The notes under the pieces: generated by a model | The model's database searches: none | Told to the model about the DNA's origin: nothing | The model's input: the letters and a program-made list of their open reading frames with translations, nothing else | Source: Cyclobacteriaceae bacterium | GTDB taxonomy: Bacteria; Bacteroidota; Bacteroidia; Cytophagales; Cyclobacteriaceae | Direction of reading: 5' to 3' | NCBI GenBank assembly: GCA_029858965.1 | Contig: JAOUDZ010000032.1 | Span: 1-44,430 of the forward strand | DNA length: 44,430 nucleotides | Program-made: the position numbers and the translations under genes | In this document: piece after piece, positions 28,333-36,382 of the stretch | How the letters are laid out: each line of letters opens with the position of its first letter | How positions within the stretch are numbered: the first letter of the stretch is position 1

Positions 28333-29175
28333 TTAATCGCTCGGAATATTATCAGCGTTAGGTAGGGCTTGCCCGCATTGGCTGCAAAACTTCGCGGTAT
28401 CTCTGTCCACTGTAGTACCGCAATGCAAACATGCCCTTTTGGCATGTGTGGCTTTGCCTGAAGTTGACGCATTAGCCCTTACAAATTCGGCCGTGACCAG
28501 GCCTGTAGGTACAGCAATCACACCATAACCGGTTATCATCAGCAGCATAGCGAGGATTTGACCAAGGGTCGTTTGCGGTGCAATGTCGCCATAGCCCACG
28601 GTTGTGAGTGTTACGATAGCCCAGTAAATACTTCGTGGAATACTGGTGAAACCATGCTCACGTCCTTCAATGATATACATCAATGTTCCCAAGAAAACAC
28701 TAACGATCATAACGAAGAAGAGAAATACGACGATTTTTCTTGAACTTGTTCTCAGCGCCTCTTTCAGTTTGCTGGCCTCACCCATAAATTGAACCAGCTT
28801 TAAGACACGGAAAACCCGAAGTAACCTAAGCACACGAATAATTGCCAGGGCATGCGTTCCGGAAATAAGGATGCCTATATAGGTAGGGAGAATTGAGAAC
28901 AGATCAATCAATCCAAAGAAACTAAATACGTAATGCCTCCGCTTTTCGGAGGTCCAAATGCGCAGTACATACTCTACGGTAAACAGGCATGTAATAATCC
29001 AATCTAATTTCTTGAAGGTAGCAGACCACCTGATATTAATTTCCTGAACGCTTTCCAGCATGAGTATCGTAATGCTGGCAATGATGAGTATAAGTAAGAC
29101 AATGTCAAAACCTTTTCCCGCCGCGGTGTCAACTCCGAAGATAATTCGATGAAGCTTTTTCTTGAATGATTTCAT
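28333..29175 (-). CDS. Voltage-sensor-type potassium channel with zinc-ribbon tail
   Basis: The 280-residue protein has six membrane segments. The S4-like helix carries repeated arginines (ALAIIRVLRLLRVFRVLKLV, residues about 109-128). The pore has the K+ selectivity filter TVGYGD at 192-197. The soluble tail after residue 245 contains two CxxC pairs (Cys249/Cys252 in RACLHCG and Cys264/Cys267 in KFCSQCGQ), forming a zinc ribbon. The channel would conduct K+ through the inner membrane, perhaps with the zinc ribbon mediating assembly or gating. It begins the ion-transport block on the minus strand, 74 bp from the end of the MscS-like gene upstream of it. Confidence 0.9.
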   Translation of the reverse strand: MKSFKKKLHRIIFGVDTAAGKGFDIVLLILIIASITILMLESVQEINIRWSATFKKLDWIITCLFTVEYVLRIWTSEKRRHYVFSFFGLIDLFSILPTYIGILISGTHALAIIRVLRLLRVFRVLKLVQFMGEASKLKEALRTSSRKIVVFLFFVMIVSVFLGTLMYIIEGREHGFTSIPRSIYWAIVTLTTVGYGDIAPQTTLGQILAMLLMITGYGVIAVPTGLVTAEFVRANASTSGKATHAKRACLHCGTTVDRDTAKFCSQCGQALPNADNIPSD

Positions 29176-29249: not shown

Positions 29250-29954
29250 TTATTTCCCAACCTCCTGAAATTTACTAACAAGCTTTGCCAACCGATCTTT
29301 CGCCAATGAAAGATAGGAGGGGTCTAGCATGAAAAACGAAATTCGCATTGAACCTTCTTCTTCCTGATTCGGCTGCACCGTAATGGGTTTGGATGCCACG
29401 CACCAGGACGATAGGGCGAGGGTTTCACGTACAAAACGCTCGAAATAGCCTGGATCAACTGCACCCTCCAGTTTTATCGTGATCACCGTTTCGCCAGGAG
29501 ACAGTGCATGCTGTGACTGGATGGAAAGCATCTGGGTGACCAGGGCTGAATACGGTACCTTTCGCCATTGACCCTCGGCGGTCTCAACAGTGAGCTGTGA
29601 CAGCCCTACACGCCTGATTGTACCATGCAGTTTTTCGCAATCCAACAACTGACCTTTGATTGGATTGTGCCGCAGGCGAAATAGGAAACCTGCGACAATA
29701 TCCTTCACATAATACCACACCACTAAGATCATGAATAAACTGATCATCACAATGACCAAGTATGGATAGTACTGCTTATCAGAAAGAAAAAGGTCTGCAG
29801 ACCAGAAGATAATGGAGGTCCATAAGGCAAGTTCAAGCCCATTCAACAGTGGAAGATACCTTTGGGTAATCCTGTTTCGAAGGCTTACTAGTTTTGCAAA
29901 GCGGAAAAAGATTACCGCAAACAAAGCAGCCACTGTTAAATAGATAGTGTTCAT
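29250..29954 (-). CDS. MscS-like membrane protein
   Basis: The ATG at 29954 shares its A with the stop codon of the upstream giant gene (TAATG), so translation is coupled; a GTG at 29963 would add three residues. The protein has 234 residues. Membrane segments include IYLTVAALFAVIFFRFAKLV, LELALWTSIIFWSADLFL and PYLVIVMISLFMILVVWYYV. A beta-rich MscS-type domain follows, with the sequence IKGQLLDCEKLHGTIRRVGL, then WRKVPYSALVTQ, and an alpha/beta tail. The usual glycine/alanine-rich pore helix of MscS is weak, so it may be a mechanosensitive channel relative or a regulator of the neighbouring transporter. Confidence 0.72.
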   Translation of the reverse strand: MNTIYLTVAALFAVIFFRFAKLVSLRNRITQRYLPLLNGLELALWTSIIFWSADLFLSDKQYYPYLVIVMISLFMILVVWYYVKDIVAGFLFRLRHNPIKGQLLDCEKLHGTIRRVGLSQLTVETAEGQWRKVPYSALVTQMLSIQSQHALSPGETVITIKLEGAVDPGYFERFVRETLALSSWCVASKPITVQPNQEEEGSMRISFFMLDPSYLSLAKDRLAKLVSKFQEVGK

Positions 29955-32900
29955 TATATCCACTCTTTTTCTGTAAAATGTTTAATTAATAAAAACTCTG
30001 CGTATGGATTCAAAAAATAAATGGAATTTCCACGAATAGAGACTAGCTGAAGGCGTTTCAACACCGCTAGACTTTCTGTTATTTGATCCTTATCTAATTG
30101 TACCGATCGTATGATCTTTTCTAAGCTCATGCGTTTGTGTAGCAACAGTTGGAGGCAAAGATGTGCCCACGGCGCTGGCATTTCTGCCAAGACATCACCA
30201 TTCTTGATAACAGGCGCCCGCCAGTTAATGGTTTTGTCTACGTAGTCCTGAATTCCTGCTAACCAGGCATTCATGGCTACCCCCGGATTTCCTTTTGAAT
30301 ATGCAAAAAGGTTATTAAAGATTCGGGCTAGTCGGATTTCACCAAATCTGTCGGTCACACCTGAACCAAAATTCAAAGAGAGTCCGCTGGACTTGTGCCG
30401 CGTCATGACCAATTGTTTCAATTCAAAAGAGTTAAAGGGCACGCATCGAATAATACCGGCGCAATGAGTGTCGAGTTTCTCTGCCGTATTGATTACTGCA
30501 AATGCATATGGATTCATATTTACAATAAACAAACATTTAGCAGAGAACTCTTCAACAAGTGATTTCAAATACCGGATCATGGTCAGGCCGTTTTCTTCAC
30601 TCCGTTCCCACCACATTTCAAGATCATGTATAACAATCATGCTATTGTGCGGCAGCATACTAAGTATTTGGGTCGCGTCACCATCAAACTTCGTCACCTT
30701 TCTCATCGCCGCTTCAAACTGATCGATGGCTATGGTACCATCTTCTGGCGGGAAAATGTGGTAGGGTGTGAAGTTACCTGATGCCGACTCGGCGAAATGT
30801 TTACACAATGCGGTTTTGCCTGTATTTCGTTCGCCTAAAACCAATAACATGCCTTGTCGGCTGACCAGGTAGCGCTGCTGTGCAACTGCGAACTGCTTTT
30901 CTTCATCAGGGCGTGCTACCCAAAAGTTATCACCTATGCTAGACCGTCCGCTGAAAAGGGAAACATAGTAATGCGGTAATCTTTGCAGTATGCCCTGGTT
31001 TGGTGTTACACTGCCGACAACGTTCAAAATCCTTTCATTTACAGATAGTATTTGTGCTGAAGATGATAACTGCCTGGCTAGTAAAATGCCTTTGGCCTGC
31101 GAGTATAGCACTGAAACTAGTGTCCGCTTCACAATATCCGCAACTTGTGCAAGTTTTTCACTCAGCCGCCCTTGTAAATGCTCTTTTCTTCTTCTCCTTA
31201 CCAACGTCGAAAAATCACCAGCCAAATCGCTCAAATGATGTATTCTCAAGGCGCTTTGAAGTTCACTGCATTGTCTGTCGATTTCTTGCAAGGTGGATTC
31301 AAGAGCTTTTTTCATCAGCTCCATTTCCTGCTTTATCGCCCGAACGGCCCTATTGACCTCCTCAGGACGCAATGATTCTTCATCTGTCTCTTCCAGATTG
31401 TATATGTTAAACATAGCCAGACTGGCCTGATCATTAACAATCAGGTTCGATCGCCCAACTTTTTCCAATAATTCCTCCAGGATATCATTTAGCGGGCCCG
31501 CTAATGTGGTCTCCGTGAGGTGCGAAACCATAGCGCGTATGGGTAAGGTTAGACCTTCGACTTTGCCATCAAACTGGATCGATACAGTAGATTCCTCTGG
31601 CAGTACACTGGAAGTAGATAGTAACTTATCCGTGATCTCCCTTAATTTCTCCGTTGCGAAATCGTGATTGAACTCCCATTCAGGCAGGGAAGGTGGTTTT
31701 GATTTTCCAGGTGCCGTAGCAACAGCAGTTAATGAATCGATCAATCGGCTAACAGGTTGCGCCTGTTCTTTATCAAATAACTGTTTGAGTCGTGCATGAA
31801 AGCCTTGTATCTCGTGTTGCACAAGTCCGAAATAGTCATACAATAATGCGCTCGACTTAATTGTGTTCAAATCAAGCGTGGCTTTTTCTGACCATTCGGC
31901 AGGATACCCGGAAAGCGTTTCTTTTCGCGCGAGATAGGATTTTCTGTAGCGCCTCTTTTTTTGGATGTAATCATTGAAATCTATGCGTTCCAGCTGTTGC
32001 ATGAAGAAAATTACATTCTTTCGGTACTCTACCTGCAGCCGGCCTTTGTATAATGATTGTAGATCGAGCAACTGGGTCTTTAGCGTTTGCACTTTTTTGA
32101 GCAAGTCCGCAATAAATGACTTAATTTCTTCATTTTGTTGCAGACTGTCCTGCATGCTTAACATGCGCTGAAAGGATTCATCTGCCCATGAAATGAAATG
32201 GCGAAAGTTTTCACGCGAAGCGGTGAGGTTCTTTCCGAGATCATCCAGGAGTACAGTAAGAAAGTGGTACCGTAGATCACGCAGGAAATAGGCAGCCCCT
32301 TCACGATAGTTCACTTTCAGTGAAATTGATTTTCGTGAAAAAGGATTTAATACTCTGCGTTTAAGCTTATACCACCGAAGGGCTGGACTATCTTCCTTAT
32401 TGGGGTCAAATTCTGTTCTGGCATAATGAATAGATAGCTGTTTTGGAAACCGGTTACTATCGGCCTCCAATTGTGCAAGGTACCACTGCATTCCTTCCTG
32501 CAGTATCTCCTCTTGTGAATGAACGACATTTTCAAGGGCGTCATCGAGTAGCCGCGCTATTTGGGTGTTGAAGTGCTTCTTGGTCCGCATGACTGCGGAA
32601 CTTCTTTGATACGGTTGGTCGTATTTTACCACCTTGTTTAATGCCGATGCCGTTGTCTCAGCAAGCGAATAGAGGTTATCATAAATTGCAGATTCCGGGT
32701 TGAAACTCGCTACGAAGATTTTCTTGTGCAGTGCCTCGGTTAGTTGAAGACCACGCTCATCTATCTTCCGGATATCATCATTAATTTCCGAATAGCGGGA
32801 CTCAGGGATCTCCGGGAGCACCCATTCATTTTTCTTGATTGTTGCAGACGCGGTATCCTGCTGGGTTACAATAGAATGGTCTTCAAAGATATTGCAGGCG

Positions 32901-35020
32901 TTAATAAGCAATACCGAGTTGAGTTGTTCACAAATCTCGTACGAAAATTGATAGGTTGTTTCCAAATCATCATAGCTGCCATCAGGAATTCCAATAACCG
33001 CAAGATCGACCGACGCAGATTCGTTGGCGATTATCTCTTTATGGGGTAATTGAGCGACATGATTGTCTATTATTTTTATGGTCGCTTTTGCCCTGTACTG
33101 CAATACAACGTTCTTTACGTAACGGTTAATACGTTCTGTATCCTCGTCATTATTTATAATAATACAAATTCTGACATTGGACTGATTCCAGGGATAGGAG
33201 CTTGTAAGATGTCTGAGTAAGTTGAGTGCAAACGAAAGGTTTCGTCCCCATCCGCTCCACCATACGTCAATGGATGGCGTTGTAATTTTCTTCGCGCTTG
33301 CATGGTGGTAAAGGAAAAGAGAATTGAGATTGTAACCTTGAATATGACTGATTAGTCTGATGAACTTGTCTTTGTTTTCCGGTTTGATACTCCAACCCAT
33401 TAAAATCGTGTTGGGCTCAATTCCTGAATAACCGTAGATACGCGCTATTTCATCTATTCCAGAATAAATATCGGTACACGTATACGTATTTCGGAATACT
33501 TTTGTATCGTCATTTTCGATTTTAACGCTTCGCTGCGGTTTCAGGATGTCATTTGATTTGATCAACTCGAAAGACGATAATAGACCAAGTTTTCCCGATA
33601 TGGCGTTTCCCAGACTCAACATGAATGGTCTTGCACTATCCGCGCCATTAAACATCAGAATGTTGGGCCGCCAGTTTCTATTGTGCTTCTTCGTTGTAGT
33701 TAGCCGTAGCAGTGAAGTTTTCACCAACGACGACCATACTCCTGCCCAGGTATCACCACTTTGCAGTGCAAGTTCTTTTCTCTTGAGGTAGAAGTACAGT
33801 ATTCCTAAAATGACAGATGCGCCAAGCGTTGCCACAAAATCGAGTTCGATCATTACGATAAAGCAGGCTGTCGCGCCCAGCAGGCTTACCCATACCGGTG
33901 TCTTGAAACTTGGCCGAAAGTCCGCGCTTGTCCATGCTTCAAAAGCACAACTCAAATTCAAAAAACCGTAGGTTGTGATGAAGAAAATAGAAACGATCCG
34001 GGCGATAACATCAAGTTCACCTATCAGAATTCCACATTCGGCTATCAAAAAAGTCAGCATGAGTGCGTTTCGTGGTTCATTGGAAGCGCCAACACCTTTT
34101 GAAAAGAAACGTGGTGTAATGTTGTCTGCCGCTGTCGCTTGTAGAATACGAGGTGCTCCTAAGATACTCCCGAGCGCTGAAGAGAGCGTTGCACCCCAAA
34201 TGCCCGCTATCACCAATTGAGGAATCCAGGATATCTTAAGTAAAACCTGTGAATCAGTAGCCAGTATTTCCCCATCTACCGTGAGGGCAAAAAAGGCAGC
34301 AAGGGCGAGATAGACAAACAGGCCAACGACGATGGCAAGAATAGTTCCCTGTGGAATGGATCGCTTCGGATCCTTCAGGTCGCCCGACATTGATACGCCT
34401 GCTTCGAATCCCGTTACCGCGGGGAAGAAGATCCCAAATAGTACCATAAAGGGTATAGCACTTGTACCCGATCCTATTGATTGAACGGCCTGCTGTGGTG
34501 CGAAATCGTGGTTCCCCAGCAATATCGAAATCAGCGAAAGGATGATCGCTGCCATAATGAAATATTGTGTCTTTATGGCCAGCGAAGTGCTGATGAAAGT
34601 GATGGTAGTTACAACAAGCAGAATAATTGTACCTGCCAATCGAATGGCATTAATAGACAGCTCAAATCCCCAAAAGCCAAGGAAGCTTTCGGCGAACCCG
34701 ATGAGGTATAAGCTTACGCTAAAGGAAAGTCCGACGAACAGTGCCAGCCCTAGGGTACCGCCGATTGGTAACCCTAAACTCCTGGAAATCATAAAGTAGG
34801 TCCCACCTGCAGCTACCTTTTTGTCTGTCGCAATAGAAGAAACACTAAGTCCTGTCGTAACAGAAATGATGTGGGCGATTACGATAATGCCGATAGTGGC
34901 CCACAAGCCTGCCTCTCCGATGATCATCGGCAGACGTAAATACATGATAACACCGAGAATGGTTAAAATGGATGGCGTGAATACGCCACTGAAGGTCCCG
35001 AATTTATTAACTTTTGCCAT
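29954..35020 (-). CDS. SLC12-type cation-chloride cotransporter fused to helical and P-loop ATPase domains
   Basis: A single uninterrupted 1688-residue frame. Residues 1 to about 430 are an amino acid-polyamine-cation transporter fold with some 12 membrane segments, opening FGTFSGVFTPSILTILGVIM, as in SLC12 (NKCC/KCC-like) proteins. Residues about 447-730 match the SLC12 cytosolic domain (NWRPNILMFNGADSARPFML), and ordinary bacterial relatives end about there. About 745-1370 is largely helical with coiled-coil-like stretches. A P-loop ATPase follows: Walker A GERNTGKT at 1396-1403, Walker B IVIHDLE with Asp1466 and Glu1468, a sensor-like FIVNMN near 1500. A winged-helix-like end spans about 1637-1688. 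It overlaps the MscS-like gene by one base. The role is inferred as ATP-controlled ion/chloride transport. Confidence 0.85.
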   Translation of the reverse strand: MAKVNKFGTFSGVFTPSILTILGVIMYLRLPMIIGEAGLWATIGIIVIAHIISVTTGLSVSSIATDKKVAAGGTYFMISRSLGLPIGGTLGLALFVGLSFSVSLYLIGFAESFLGFWGFELSINAIRLAGTIILLVVTTITFISTSLAIKTQYFIMAAIILSLISILLGNHDFAPQQAVQSIGSGTSAIPFMVLFGIFFPAVTGFEAGVSMSGDLKDPKRSIPQGTILAIVVGLFVYLALAAFFALTVDGEILATDSQVLLKISWIPQLVIAGIWGATLSSALGSILGAPRILQATAADNITPRFFSKGVGASNEPRNALMLTFLIAECGILIGELDVIARIVSIFFITTYGFLNLSCAFEAWTSADFRPSFKTPVWVSLLGATACFIVMIELDFVATLGASVILGILYFYLKRKELALQSGDTWAGVWSSLVKTSLLRLTTTKKHNRNWRPNILMFNGADSARPFMLSLGNAISGKLGLLSSFELIKSNDILKPQRSVKIENDDTKVFRNTYTCTDIYSGIDEIARIYGYSGIEPNTILMGWSIKPENKDKFIRLISHIQGYNLNSLFLYHHASAKKITTPSIDVWWSGWGRNLSFALNLLRHLTSSYPWNQSNVRICIIINNDEDTERINRYVKNVVLQYRAKATIKIIDNHVAQLPHKEIIANESASVDLAVIGIPDGSYDDLETTYQFSYEICEQLNSVLLINACNIFEDHSIVTQQDTASATIKKNEWVLPEIPESRYSEINDDIRKIDERGLQLTEALHKKIFVASFNPESAIYDNLYSLAETTASALNKVVKYDQPYQRSSAVMRTKKHFNTQIARLLDDALENVVHSQEEILQEGMQWYLAQLEADSNRFPKQLSIHYARTEFDPNKEDSPALRWYKLKRRVLNPFSRKSISLKVNYREGAAYFLRDLRYHFLTVLLDDLGKNLTASRENFRHFISWADESFQRMLSMQDSLQQNEEIKSFIADLLKKVQTLKTQLLDLQSLYKGRLQVEYRKNVIFFMQQLERIDFNDYIQKKRRYRKSYLARKETLSGYPAEWSEKATLDLNTIKSSALLYDYFGLVQHEIQGFHARLKQLFDKEQAQPVSRLIDSLTAVATAPGKSKPPSLPEWEFNHDFATEKLREITDKLLSTSSVLPEESTVSIQFDGKVEGLTLPIRAMVSHLTETTLAGPLNDILEELLEKVGRSNLIVNDQASLAMFNIYNLEETDEESLRPEEVNRAVRAIKQEMELMKKALESTLQEIDRQCSELQSALRIHHLSDLAGDFSTLVRRRRKEHLQGRLSEKLAQVADIVKRTLVSVLYSQAKGILLARQLSSSAQILSVNERILNVVGSVTPNQGILQRLPHYYVSLFSGRSSIGDNFWVARPDEEKQFAVAQQRYLVSRQGMLLVLGERNTGKTALCKHFAESASGNFTPYHIFPPEDGTIAIDQFEAAMRKVTKFDGDATQILSMLPHNSMIVIHDLEMWWERSEENGLTMIRYLKSLVEEFSAKCLFIVNMNPYAFAVINTAEKLDTHCAGIIRCVPFNSFELKQLVMTRHKSSGLSLNFGSGVTDRFGEIRLARIFNNLFAYSKGNPGVAMNAWLAGIQDYVDKTINWRAPVIKNGDVLAEMPAPWAHLCLQLLLHKRMSLEKIIRSVQLDKDQITESLAVLKRLQLVSIRGNSIYFLNPYAEFLLIKHFTEKEWI

Positions 35021-35128: not shown

Positions 35129-36382
35129 ATGATTACACAAAACATTTACTACGACATTCTTTTGATTTGTGGTGTTATTATTTTATCCTATTCCTTTGGA
35201 TGGGTGTCAAAACTAACCAGAATACCAAGTGTTCTTTTACTTATCCTCTTTGGTATCGGCTGTCAGTTTGCCATGCGCTACTTTAATCTCCATCTGGGAC
35301 CAAGTGCTTTCAATTTACTACAATTGCTTGGTATCGTAGGACTTATTATGATTGTATTGGAGGCTGCGCTTGACCTTACATTAACCAGGGAAAAACGTCC
35401 ACTAATTCTGAAGGCCTTTGCAGTCGCCTTTGTCGCGCTTTCCGGTTCGGCTGTTGTTTTGGCCTACCTGATCCAAGAGTTTCTCAACTTCGAATTTTAT
35501 GTCGCCTTAGTGTACGCAATTCCACTCTCCGTCATGAGTAGTGCGATTATTATACCAAGCGTAAAGCAATTGTCTCAATCCAGGAAAGAGTTTATGATAT
35601 ACGAAAGTACTTTCTCCGACATTCTTGGAATTATGTTTTTCTACTTCGCTATCGGAACCCCCAAGGACGCGACGGCCCTATCGATAGTGAAGGAAGTAGG
35701 ATTCAACGTTCTTATTACAGTCAGCTTGTCTGTATTCATAAGCTATTTACTGGTGTTAATTTTTCAAAAGATAGAAGAAAATGCGCGTCTTTTCTTACTG
35801 ATCGCTGTTCTGATAGCGCTATATTCAGTCGGAAAAATATTTCATCTCTCTTCGTTAATCGTTATTTTGATTTTCGGCCTTACGTTGAGTAACTATAAGC
35901 TATTCTTTTCCGGGAAACTGCAAAAATGGATTGATCCCGGAGTTTTGAAAAAGATCAACAAGGAATTTCATCTTGTGACGCTGGAATCTGCATTTGTTGT
36001 TCGTACATTCTTCTTTGTGGTTTTTGGGATGACACTGGATTTGGCATCGTTGCTAAATGTAGGAACAGCAATTATCAGTATTAGCCTGGTTCTTGCGCTC
36101 TATGTCGTCAGATTGATCAGCTTGCGGTTATTTATGAAGAGTATCAACCCCGAGTGGTTCATCGCACCACGTGGTTTGATTACCGTTCTCTTATTTTTTG
36201 GAATACCGGAAGCGTACGTTCAGCATAACTTCAGCAGCGGGATTTTACTCTATGCTATTCTTATGACAGGACTGGTAATGACGATAGGCATGATATTTTA
36301 TCAAAATGAAGCTGATGACGTTGCTGAATTACATTTTGATAATCTCGCTGAGCTGGATAAAGAGCTAGTCAAGCGTGAATAA
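35129..36382 (+). CDS. Cation:proton antiporter (CPA family)
   Basis: The 417-residue protein consists of about 11-12 membrane segments, e.g. LLLILFGIGCQFAMRYF, LIMIVLEAALDLTL, VLIALYSVGKIFHLSSLIVI and FFFVVFGMTLDLASLLNVG. Pattern and length fit the NhaP/Kef-type Na+(K+)/H+ antiporters of the CPA superfamily without a C-terminal TrkA-N domain. It would exchange Na+ or K+ for protons at the inner membrane. It is divergent from the SLC12-ATPase gene across 108 bp and converges with nadB (6-bp gap), which links it to the ion-transport block. Confidence 0.85.
   Translation: MITQNIYYDILLICGVIILSYSFGWVSKLTRIPSVLLLILFGIGCQFAMRYFNLHLGPSAFNLLQLLGIVGLIMIVLEAALDLTLTREKRPLILKAFAVAFVALSGSAVVLAYLIQEFLNFEFYVALVYAIPLSVMSSAIIIPSVKQLSQSRKEFMIYESTFSDILGIMFFYFAIGTPKDATALSIVKEVGFNVLITVSLSVFISYLLVLIFQKIEENARLFLLIAVLIALYSVGKIFHLSSLIVILIFGLTLSNYKLFFSGKLQKWIDPGVLKKINKEFHLVTLESAFVVRTFFFVVFGMTLDLASLLNVGTAIISISLVLALYVVRLISLRLFMKSINPEWFIAPRGLITVLLFFGIPEAYVQHNFSSGILLYAILMTGLVMTIGMIFYQNEADDVAELHFDNLAELDKELVKRE

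Follow-up and report, generated by a model that had tools for sequence, protein, structure and literature searches.

Introduction

TrkH-TrkA, KtrAB and Kef are cation transporters controlled by a nucleotide-binding RCK/KTN part, which is either fused to the transporter or encoded separately. The SLC12 cotransporters are gradient-driven carriers and drug targets that are regulated in animals by phosphorylation, and in ArsAB an ATPase, ArsA, is attached to a carrier able to work as a secondary transporter and energises the transport. Here we describe a gene of a Cyclobacteriaceae bacterium (GenBank assembly GCA_029858965.1) that encodes an SLC12 carrier, a long helical region and a predicted P-loop ATPase of the AAA+/STAND kind in one frame and is directly followed by a gene for an MscS-fold protein. 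It lies on contig JAOUDZ010000032.1, positions 1 to 44,430, and this whole stretch of 44,430 nucleotides is called the window in the following. To our knowledge no described system combines a carrier, an AAA+/STAND module and an MscS-fold partner, nor do we know of experiments on one. No description of the architecture or of the module was found in the open-licence PMC literature, where most of our queries combined several terms.

Taken singly, each recognised domain is a member of a known superfamily. With the SLC12 cotransporters (NKCC1, KCC1-4, NCC) the protein shares the membrane and cytosolic domains and the K+/Na+ site residues, but it carries about 950 additional C-terminal residues, consisting of helices and the ATPase. 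Like the ORC/Cdc6-STAND group of AAA+ proteins (2qen, Cdc6/Orc1, the NLRP3 NACHT, Apaf-1) it is predicted to have a P-loop core with a winged helix behind it, whereas the place of the Walker B Asp is taken by His, Asn, Glu or Asp, a membrane carrier is attached and sensor repeats were not recognised. The RCK/KTN systems are the works-like analogue, as a cytosolic nucleotide-binding part controls a transporter; their Rossmann fold contrasts with the predicted AAA+/STAND ATPase, long helices and MscS-fold partner found here. No match to the Rossmann-type RCK/KTN family TrkA_N was found by Pfam in the window protein, and separate TrkA genes lie near the related loci L088 and L133. The partner has the three transmembrane helices, beta domain, alpha/beta end and PF00924 match of the MscS family, but it is shorter (about 235 amino acids in SLC12 fusions), adjoins the ATPase module and sometimes consists of the C-terminal piece only. 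ArsA, finally, is a different class of ATPase, and energisation is not indicated in the present data.

Results and Discussion

The fusion gene is located on the minus strand (29954-35020; the initial annotation named no strand) together with all its parts named below and forms, as claimed in that annotation, a single frame of 1688 codons. The frame is intact, with an ATG start and no internal stop. It is present as a single copy in the genome. Residues 1-435 (33716..35020) represent the SLC12 membrane domain, which is matched by Pfam AA_permease (residues 13-455, 4.4e-48), TIGR00930 and KCC/NKCC structures, and residues 436-735 (32816..33715) the SLC12 cytosolic C-terminal domain, in which KCC matches extend to residue 657-667. 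The K-Cl cotransporter family TIGR00930 of NCBIfam spans residues 2-669 with 394 bits, under its curated cut-off of 953, and the best PDB match of the carrier part is human KCC3 (4e-82, phmmer), in agreement with the annotated carrier up to about residue 730. The further claim that SLC12 genes without the module end near this junction also held, as they encode 727-797 amino acids when complete (open frames mostly about 716-860), and in several of them the cytosolic domain is matched too. In the fusion a long region of predicted helices follows (residues 736-1340, 31001..32815), and behind it a predicted ORC/STAND-type AAA+ ATPase with a C-terminal winged helix (residues 1341-1688, 29957..31000), to which Pfam AAA_16 and AAA_22 give weak matches.

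An assembly error or a missed stop between residues 730 and 1396 can be ruled out because the full-length frame recurs in many independent assemblies, with 35 other distinct genes showing the uninterrupted architecture. From 50 loci of a genome-contig scan 28 carried such a frame (1639-1723 amino acids), and seven further full-length copies (L093-L095 and L164-L167, with L164 and L165 being near-copies) extend the range of all 35 to 1639-1821 amino acids. Several of these genes belong to cultured strains with a name. The named carriers of the full-length fusion are Fulvivirga (two), Imperialibacter, Thermonema rossianum, Flexithrix dorotheae and Lewinella cohaerens. Other copies stem from metagenome assemblies under the labels Acidobacteria, Marinimicrobia, Ignavibacterium, Latescibacterota and Proteobacteria, although bin labels can be wrong. 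Two extra fusion genes are incomplete: L063 is broken, and L065 runs into the end of its contig. A split copy (L053, 836 and 843 amino acids) comes from a metagenome assembly of low coverage and could reflect either a natural split or a frameshift; it was given zero weight. For the pair L039/L059 the nonsynonymous divergence (dN) is 0.02-0.07 compared with a synonymous divergence (dS) of 0.50-0.55 in all four regions, and the proportion of nonsynonymous differences (pN) between the window and L035 is 0.09-0.28, with synonymous sites being saturated.

As Pfam and NCBIfam name the carrier alone in the window protein, we used profile-profile comparison and structure prediction for the remaining part. 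No family exceeds its Pfam gathering score in residues 736-1688, the best being AAA_16 with 20.1 bits versus 32.6, and in other members this score is passed (AAA_22 in L083, 29 versus 27; AAA_16 in L169, 37.1 versus 32.6). The module occurs in four arrangements. Type A comprises the SLC12 fusions (1639-1821 amino acids). In type B a stand-alone ATPase of 749-808 amino acids is followed by a small membrane gene and then by a CPA antiporter gene; the small gene is MscS-like in L086, L087 and L173, while in L139 and L140 it encodes 185-187 amino acids with three predicted transmembrane helices and an MscS match is absent. Type C (L088, L089, L132, L137 and L169; 1495-1578 amino acids) has a CPA antiporter, helices and ATPase fused in one protein, and type D is again stand-alone, mostly with 926-1107 amino acids and in some cases shorter (about 430 in L091). 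The C-terminus of the SLC12 fusions could be aligned with type D (hhalign 100%, E-value 5.7e-50, 844 columns including the ATPase) and with type C (99.95%, 3.2e-38, 830 columns, two CPA-fusion sequences). Since these alignments begin near window residue 850 and cover both the helical arm and the ATPase, residues from about 850 to 1688 form, as judged from the profiles, a single movable and homologous unit that two unrelated families of carriers share. An ATPase-domain profile (alignment A5) matches 74 of 296 Bacteroidota genomes at E-values up to 1e-5, 59 of them at about 1e-29 or better, and most of these matches are not SLC12 fusions.

In 100% of the bootstraps the ATPase tree separates 38 SLC12-fused rows (including the window) from the five CPA-fused rows, therefore at least two fusion events are needed, and the SLC12 and CPA fusions look independent in origin in this tree, in which 12 rows were flagged for odd composition and L169 and L087 for their long branches. 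The long-branched L169 does not group with the other four CPA fusions, which may thus go back to more than one event. The stand-alone L168 branches within the clade of SLC12-fused ATPases, which hints that its carrier part was lost later. All 37 fused rows of the SLC12 tree (with the window and L058, without L063 and L065) fall into one clade of 47 rows (100/100) along with ten unfused rows, and separate origins of fused and unfused SLC12 were set aside on this ground. Among the ten, we take L054, L055, L056, L060 and L071, which lie at or close to contig ends, for fragments and L053 for a split gene, leaving L078, L129, L130 and L131 as truly unfused. The fused/unfused label changes nine times on the tree at face value, with at least seven changes forced by well-supported branches; once the fragments are set aside, one gain of the fusion followed by losses would be the simplest, but not a proved, history.

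A second module gene, spanning nearly the whole ATPase profile, is present in five of the nine fusion genomes searched (G300-G304), with open frames of 824-1019 amino acids in four of them and of 1609 in G304. In another case two loci share one genome, namely a fusion without an MscS-like gene (L166, 6327-11666) and a carrier-less ATPase with one (L168, 5235-8204).

Directly after the fusion gene follows the MscS-fold partner (29250..29954, minus strand; 234-237 amino acids), whose probable ATG at 29954 shares one nucleotide with the stop of the fusion, and in our reading both genes would be co-transcribed; the list of open reading frames gives an alternative GTG start at 29963. PF00924 is matched with 22.3 bits versus a cut-off of 20.2 in the window partner. 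At an E-value of 0.01 this family is also matched by 25 of 27 partners in alignment A4, to which the window contributes; the short partners of L037, L038 and L041 are left out there, as is L067, whose frame is too long. The AlphaFold model of the partner (predicted local distance difference test, pLDDT, 87) starts with three helices, and Foldseek retrieved MscS, MscK and YnaI of E. coli (best E-value 3.3e-10) with TM-scores of only about 0.4, perhaps caused by a differing set of the membrane versus the cytosolic halves.

In order to see how constant this neighbourhood is, we tallied 76 distinct module genes with wide flanks from loci L033-L098 and L129-L179, a set selected by its matches rather than drawn at random, counting MscS-fold genes on the same strand within 900 bases. 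Outside this tally stand duplicates (L174, L175), a truncated gene (L148), genes under 90 bits (L058, which is cut, and L170), the window itself and loci L001-L032, L099-L128 and L149-L163. An MscS-fold gene was found beside 70 of the 76, namely at 35/37 SLC12 fusions (L063 and L065 included), all five CPA fusions and 30/34 others; it lies downstream in 64 cases and upstream in six, the latter forming part of one clade in the ATPase tree. None was found within this distance at L052, L166, L134, L138, L139 and L140, and no MscS match was found beside the untallied L170. As a control, 14 SLC12 genes without a fused module had no such neighbour (0/14; the flanks were too short at five others). 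These 14 include the split fusion L053, which has an MscS-like gene after its second half.

For the carrier part we compared the ion sites, which comprise a Tyr of TM3 and Pro/Thr of TM6 for K+ and, in Na+-coupled members, Ala/Ser/Ser of TM8. PMC7035313 names Ala610, Ser613 and Ser614 of NKCC1 for Na+ and Tyr383, Pro496 and Thr499 for K+, and describes the Na+ site as absent from KCC1 structures. A direct alignment with NKCC1 places Ala610 at A277 and Ser613/Ser614 at S280/S281 of the window protein. The K+ site was mapped via the KCC3 alignment (Tyr383 to Y105, Pro496 to P200, Thr499 to T203), using what we take to be the KCC3-to-NKCC1 residue correspondence. Y105, P200, T203 and S281 are each identical in 29/29 aligned fusions and S280 is conserved as read from the printed alignment; two positions of the first transmembrane helix, matched by motif, deviate from NKCC1 (Asn298 to Thr20 and Trp300 to Leu22). 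These residues make a substrate of the Na+-K+-Cl- type likely. In the fusions L164 (5495-10960), L165 (6233-11698) and L166 (6327-11666), which have 1779-1821 amino acids, the SLC12 part contains about 70-85 additional residues between membrane helices 3 and 4 according to the predicted helix spacing.

Residues 726-1688 were modelled with AlphaFold as a single chain using 30 sequences (mean pLDDT 85, predicted template modelling score 0.54). The model shows an arm of helices about 50-65 residues long with pLDDT mostly above 85, a beta hairpin at 1144-1159, a low-confidence segment at about 1277-1323 and at its end a P-loop domain followed by a helix-strand arrangement of the winged-helix type, which is what the annotation had proposed for the helical stretch and the C-terminal end. 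The best Foldseek match is the Walker-type ATPase 2qen from P. abyssi (E-value 2e-6, aligned range not printed in the output), followed by weaker matches to Cdc6/Orc1 and ORC, RuvB and then NLRP3, Apaf-1 and Avs4. These matches support the annotated STAND/AAA-type P-loop and place the predicted fold on the ORC/STAND side of the AAA+ ATPases. In the alignment of 29 fusions the Walker A motif GERNTGKT, located at residues 1396-1403 as annotated (30812..30835), has G1396 and G1401 in 29/29 and K1402 in 28/29 sequences. The Walker B assignment was right for D1466 and E1468, which are present in the motif MIVIHDLE (residues 1461-1468, 30617..30640), but not for its canonical form: it is an HDLE-type variant instead of hhhhDE, and His1465, directly after the predicted strand 1460-1464, appears to occupy the place of the canonical Asp (H16, N9, D2, E2 in the 29 fusions). 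D1466, E1468, R1541, G1577 and G1580 are identical in all 29, and a motif resembling GNP (G in 29, N in 24 and P in 19 of the 29) bears some likeness to the GxP motif of STAND proteins. Across most of the helical region the mean identity to the window protein is just about 15-28% per 50 residues.

Because the same module occurs on two families of ion carriers and has Trk, CPA and MscS-fold neighbours, we read it as a nucleotide switch. Our favoured reading, which we hold to be more probable than not, is that an ATP-dependent switch together with an MscS-like partner regulates carriers of K+, Na+ and Cl- and so serves osmotic and ion control; it is reasonable to infer that the carrier is controlled by the binding or hydrolysis of ATP. 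An AAA+/STAND-type switch would be covalently attached to a secondary carrier, giving one unit of ion and osmotic homeostasis. The carrier would move K+, Na+ and Cl- via its NKCC-like sites, while the ATPase domain would bind and, in the SLC12 branch, probably hydrolyse ATP, and its conformational or oligomeric state would be relayed by the long helical arm, through physical contact, to the cytosolic domain of the carrier, turning transport up or down. The MscS-fold protein from the putative same operon could act under the same switch as a regulatory or tension-sensing subunit or as a release channel, by which salt uptake and release would be set together. A bolder version is attractive but slightly harder to believe than to doubt: an exchangeable control cassette, in which arm and ATPase, together about 850 residues long, come with an MscS-fold partner of their own, would have been plugged independently into SLC12 and CPA carriers, and its ATP-driven states would jointly set salt uptake and release as one volume regulator.

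Several observations weigh against the regulatory switch, and some of them bear on its rivals as well. With respect to the partner, L037 (13058-13408), L038 (13073-13408) and L041 (13022-13393) encode only a soluble piece of 111-123 amino acids, which matches positions 152-236 of 238 of the MscS model and has lost the transmembrane and beta domains; these reduced partners (two from Fulvivirga, one from Imperialibacter) overlap the end of the fusion gene by four bases. Taken together with L052 and L166, which have no partner, they show that a working channel is not always needed. The same cases speak against the idea that the module opens and closes the MscS-like channel, with the fused carrier being cargo that positions or senses: the fusion persists although the partner has lost its membrane part or is missing. 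This idea would account for the MscS-fold gene being the most constant partner (70/76) and for its retention where a fused carrier is not known (30/34), and we consider it unlikely, though the best of the alternatives to the regulatory switch.

The catalytic residues give the second group of such observations. All nine sequences in A5 that belong to types C and D have Asn or Ser in place of D1466, and in two of these the Walker A Lys is replaced as well (Arg in L083, Asn in L090), therefore ordinary hydrolysis can be dispensable for the module there. Both type B sequences of A5 keep the Asp (2/2), so that hydrolysis is most readily expected in the branch of the SLC12 fusions and type B. Even among the SLC12 fusions one, L067 (7998-13088), has Met instead of the Walker A Lys. 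The loss of the acidic residue would be unexpected for an energising motor and thus counts against an ATP-energised carrier, in which the ATPase would perform mechanical work and turn the secondary carrier into a primary pump by analogy with ArsA/ArsB. Mechanical work is within reach of AAA+ ATPases, and the covalent attachment, the conserved acids of catalytic type in the SLC12 branch and the pairing with two carrier families would suit such a pump; the nearest folds, however, are of the ORC/STAND switch or loader type, and the intact SLC12 ion-site residues fit gradient-driven symport, which makes this explanation improbable in our view. The same loss of the acid in several lineages and the very long predicted helices would be expected if the arm were a scaffold or assembly factor, tethering carrier and MscS-like protein in clusters with a nucleotide that merely stabilises the fold. 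Against this stands the strict conservation of D1466, E1468 and R1541 (29/29) and K1402 (28/29) in the SLC12 branch despite the low identity of the helical region, and a pure scaffold has little probability for us. An anti-phage defence system of the STAND type, in which the activated ATPase would open the carrier as membrane effector in abortive infection, is very unlikely, since the fold similarity to Avs4 and NLRP3 and a weak PADLOC mad8 match (E-value 3.8e-4, 18.1 bits) are outweighed by the restriction of this match to residues 1387-1449 of the window protein with otherwise no curated defence family matched, by the lack of any Pfam sensor repeat in this protein, by the conserved ion-site residues of the carrier and by cation transporters recurring beside CPA-type and stand-alone modules where neighbours were identified (defence genes were unsought at most loci).

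Distribution and neighbourhood complete the evidence that the regulatory switch has to accommodate. The close SLC12 relatives L078 and L129-L131 do without the module, we noticed no gene resembling TrkH or TrkA in the neighbourhood of L169, a CPA fusion, and the SLC12 fusion is rare: in the order of the window a module of any type is present in 8 of 148 genomes (six with frames of 1688-1822 amino acids), and among the 11 genomes of the same family listed the fusion occurs only in that of the window. Another genome of this family, G076, has the stand-alone type of the module. In a survey of 296 Bacteroidota genomes with residues 1-701 as query (E-value up to 1e-20) 69 had SLC12, and only four, that of the window among them, had an open frame exceeding 1600 amino acids. 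The phylum of L043 shows the module in 6/120 genomes, three with frames of 1722-1725 amino acids. Thus, the fusion is widespread yet uncommon, and as a rule SLC12 genes lack it.

Further genes for ion transport lie near the fusion. A CPA-type Na+/H+ antiporter (35129..36382, plus strand; PF00999, 3e-17) is encoded divergently from it, and this antiporter family also follows the ATPase and MscS-like genes in type B operons; a divergent upstream CPA antiporter is found in 12 of 37 distinct fetched fusions in addition to the window. Directly after the MscS-like gene lies a K+-channel-like gene (28333..29175, minus strand; PF00520, 1.9e-37) with a C-terminal zinc ribbon according to weak matches. 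Pfam identified TrkH and TrkA in the genes adjoining the CPA fusion L088, and similar-looking genes, judged by appearance only, take the same places at L089, L132 and L137. At L133 (6062-10459), counted here as stand-alone, the module stands behind an N-terminal part with 11 transmembrane helices that matches no Pfam family; TrkH and TrkA genes adjoin it according to Pfam, and the N-terminal part is possibly a third type of carrier. Neither TrkH nor KdpA was found in the genome of the window (99% complete), which has one Kup, and TrkH is present in eight of nine other fusion genomes searched; the fusion as sole K+ importer was therefore rejected.

Conclusion

In summary we have described a module of helical arm and predicted AAA+/STAND ATPase that is attached to SLC12 and CPA carriers and is accompanied by an MscS-fold gene at most of the loci tallied. 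If the regulatory reading is true, the system would work like the transporters controlled by RCK/KTN parts, with a different regulator, and a volume regulator of this kind would be the bacterial one-polypeptide counterpart of the SLC12 volume system that kinases control in animals. It would point to a bacterial way, so far without a name, of tying the energy and membrane state of the cell to the transport of K+, Na+ and Cl-. As the parts occur in cultured species, the question whether an AAA+/STAND switch can gate a secondary carrier becomes accessible to experiment.

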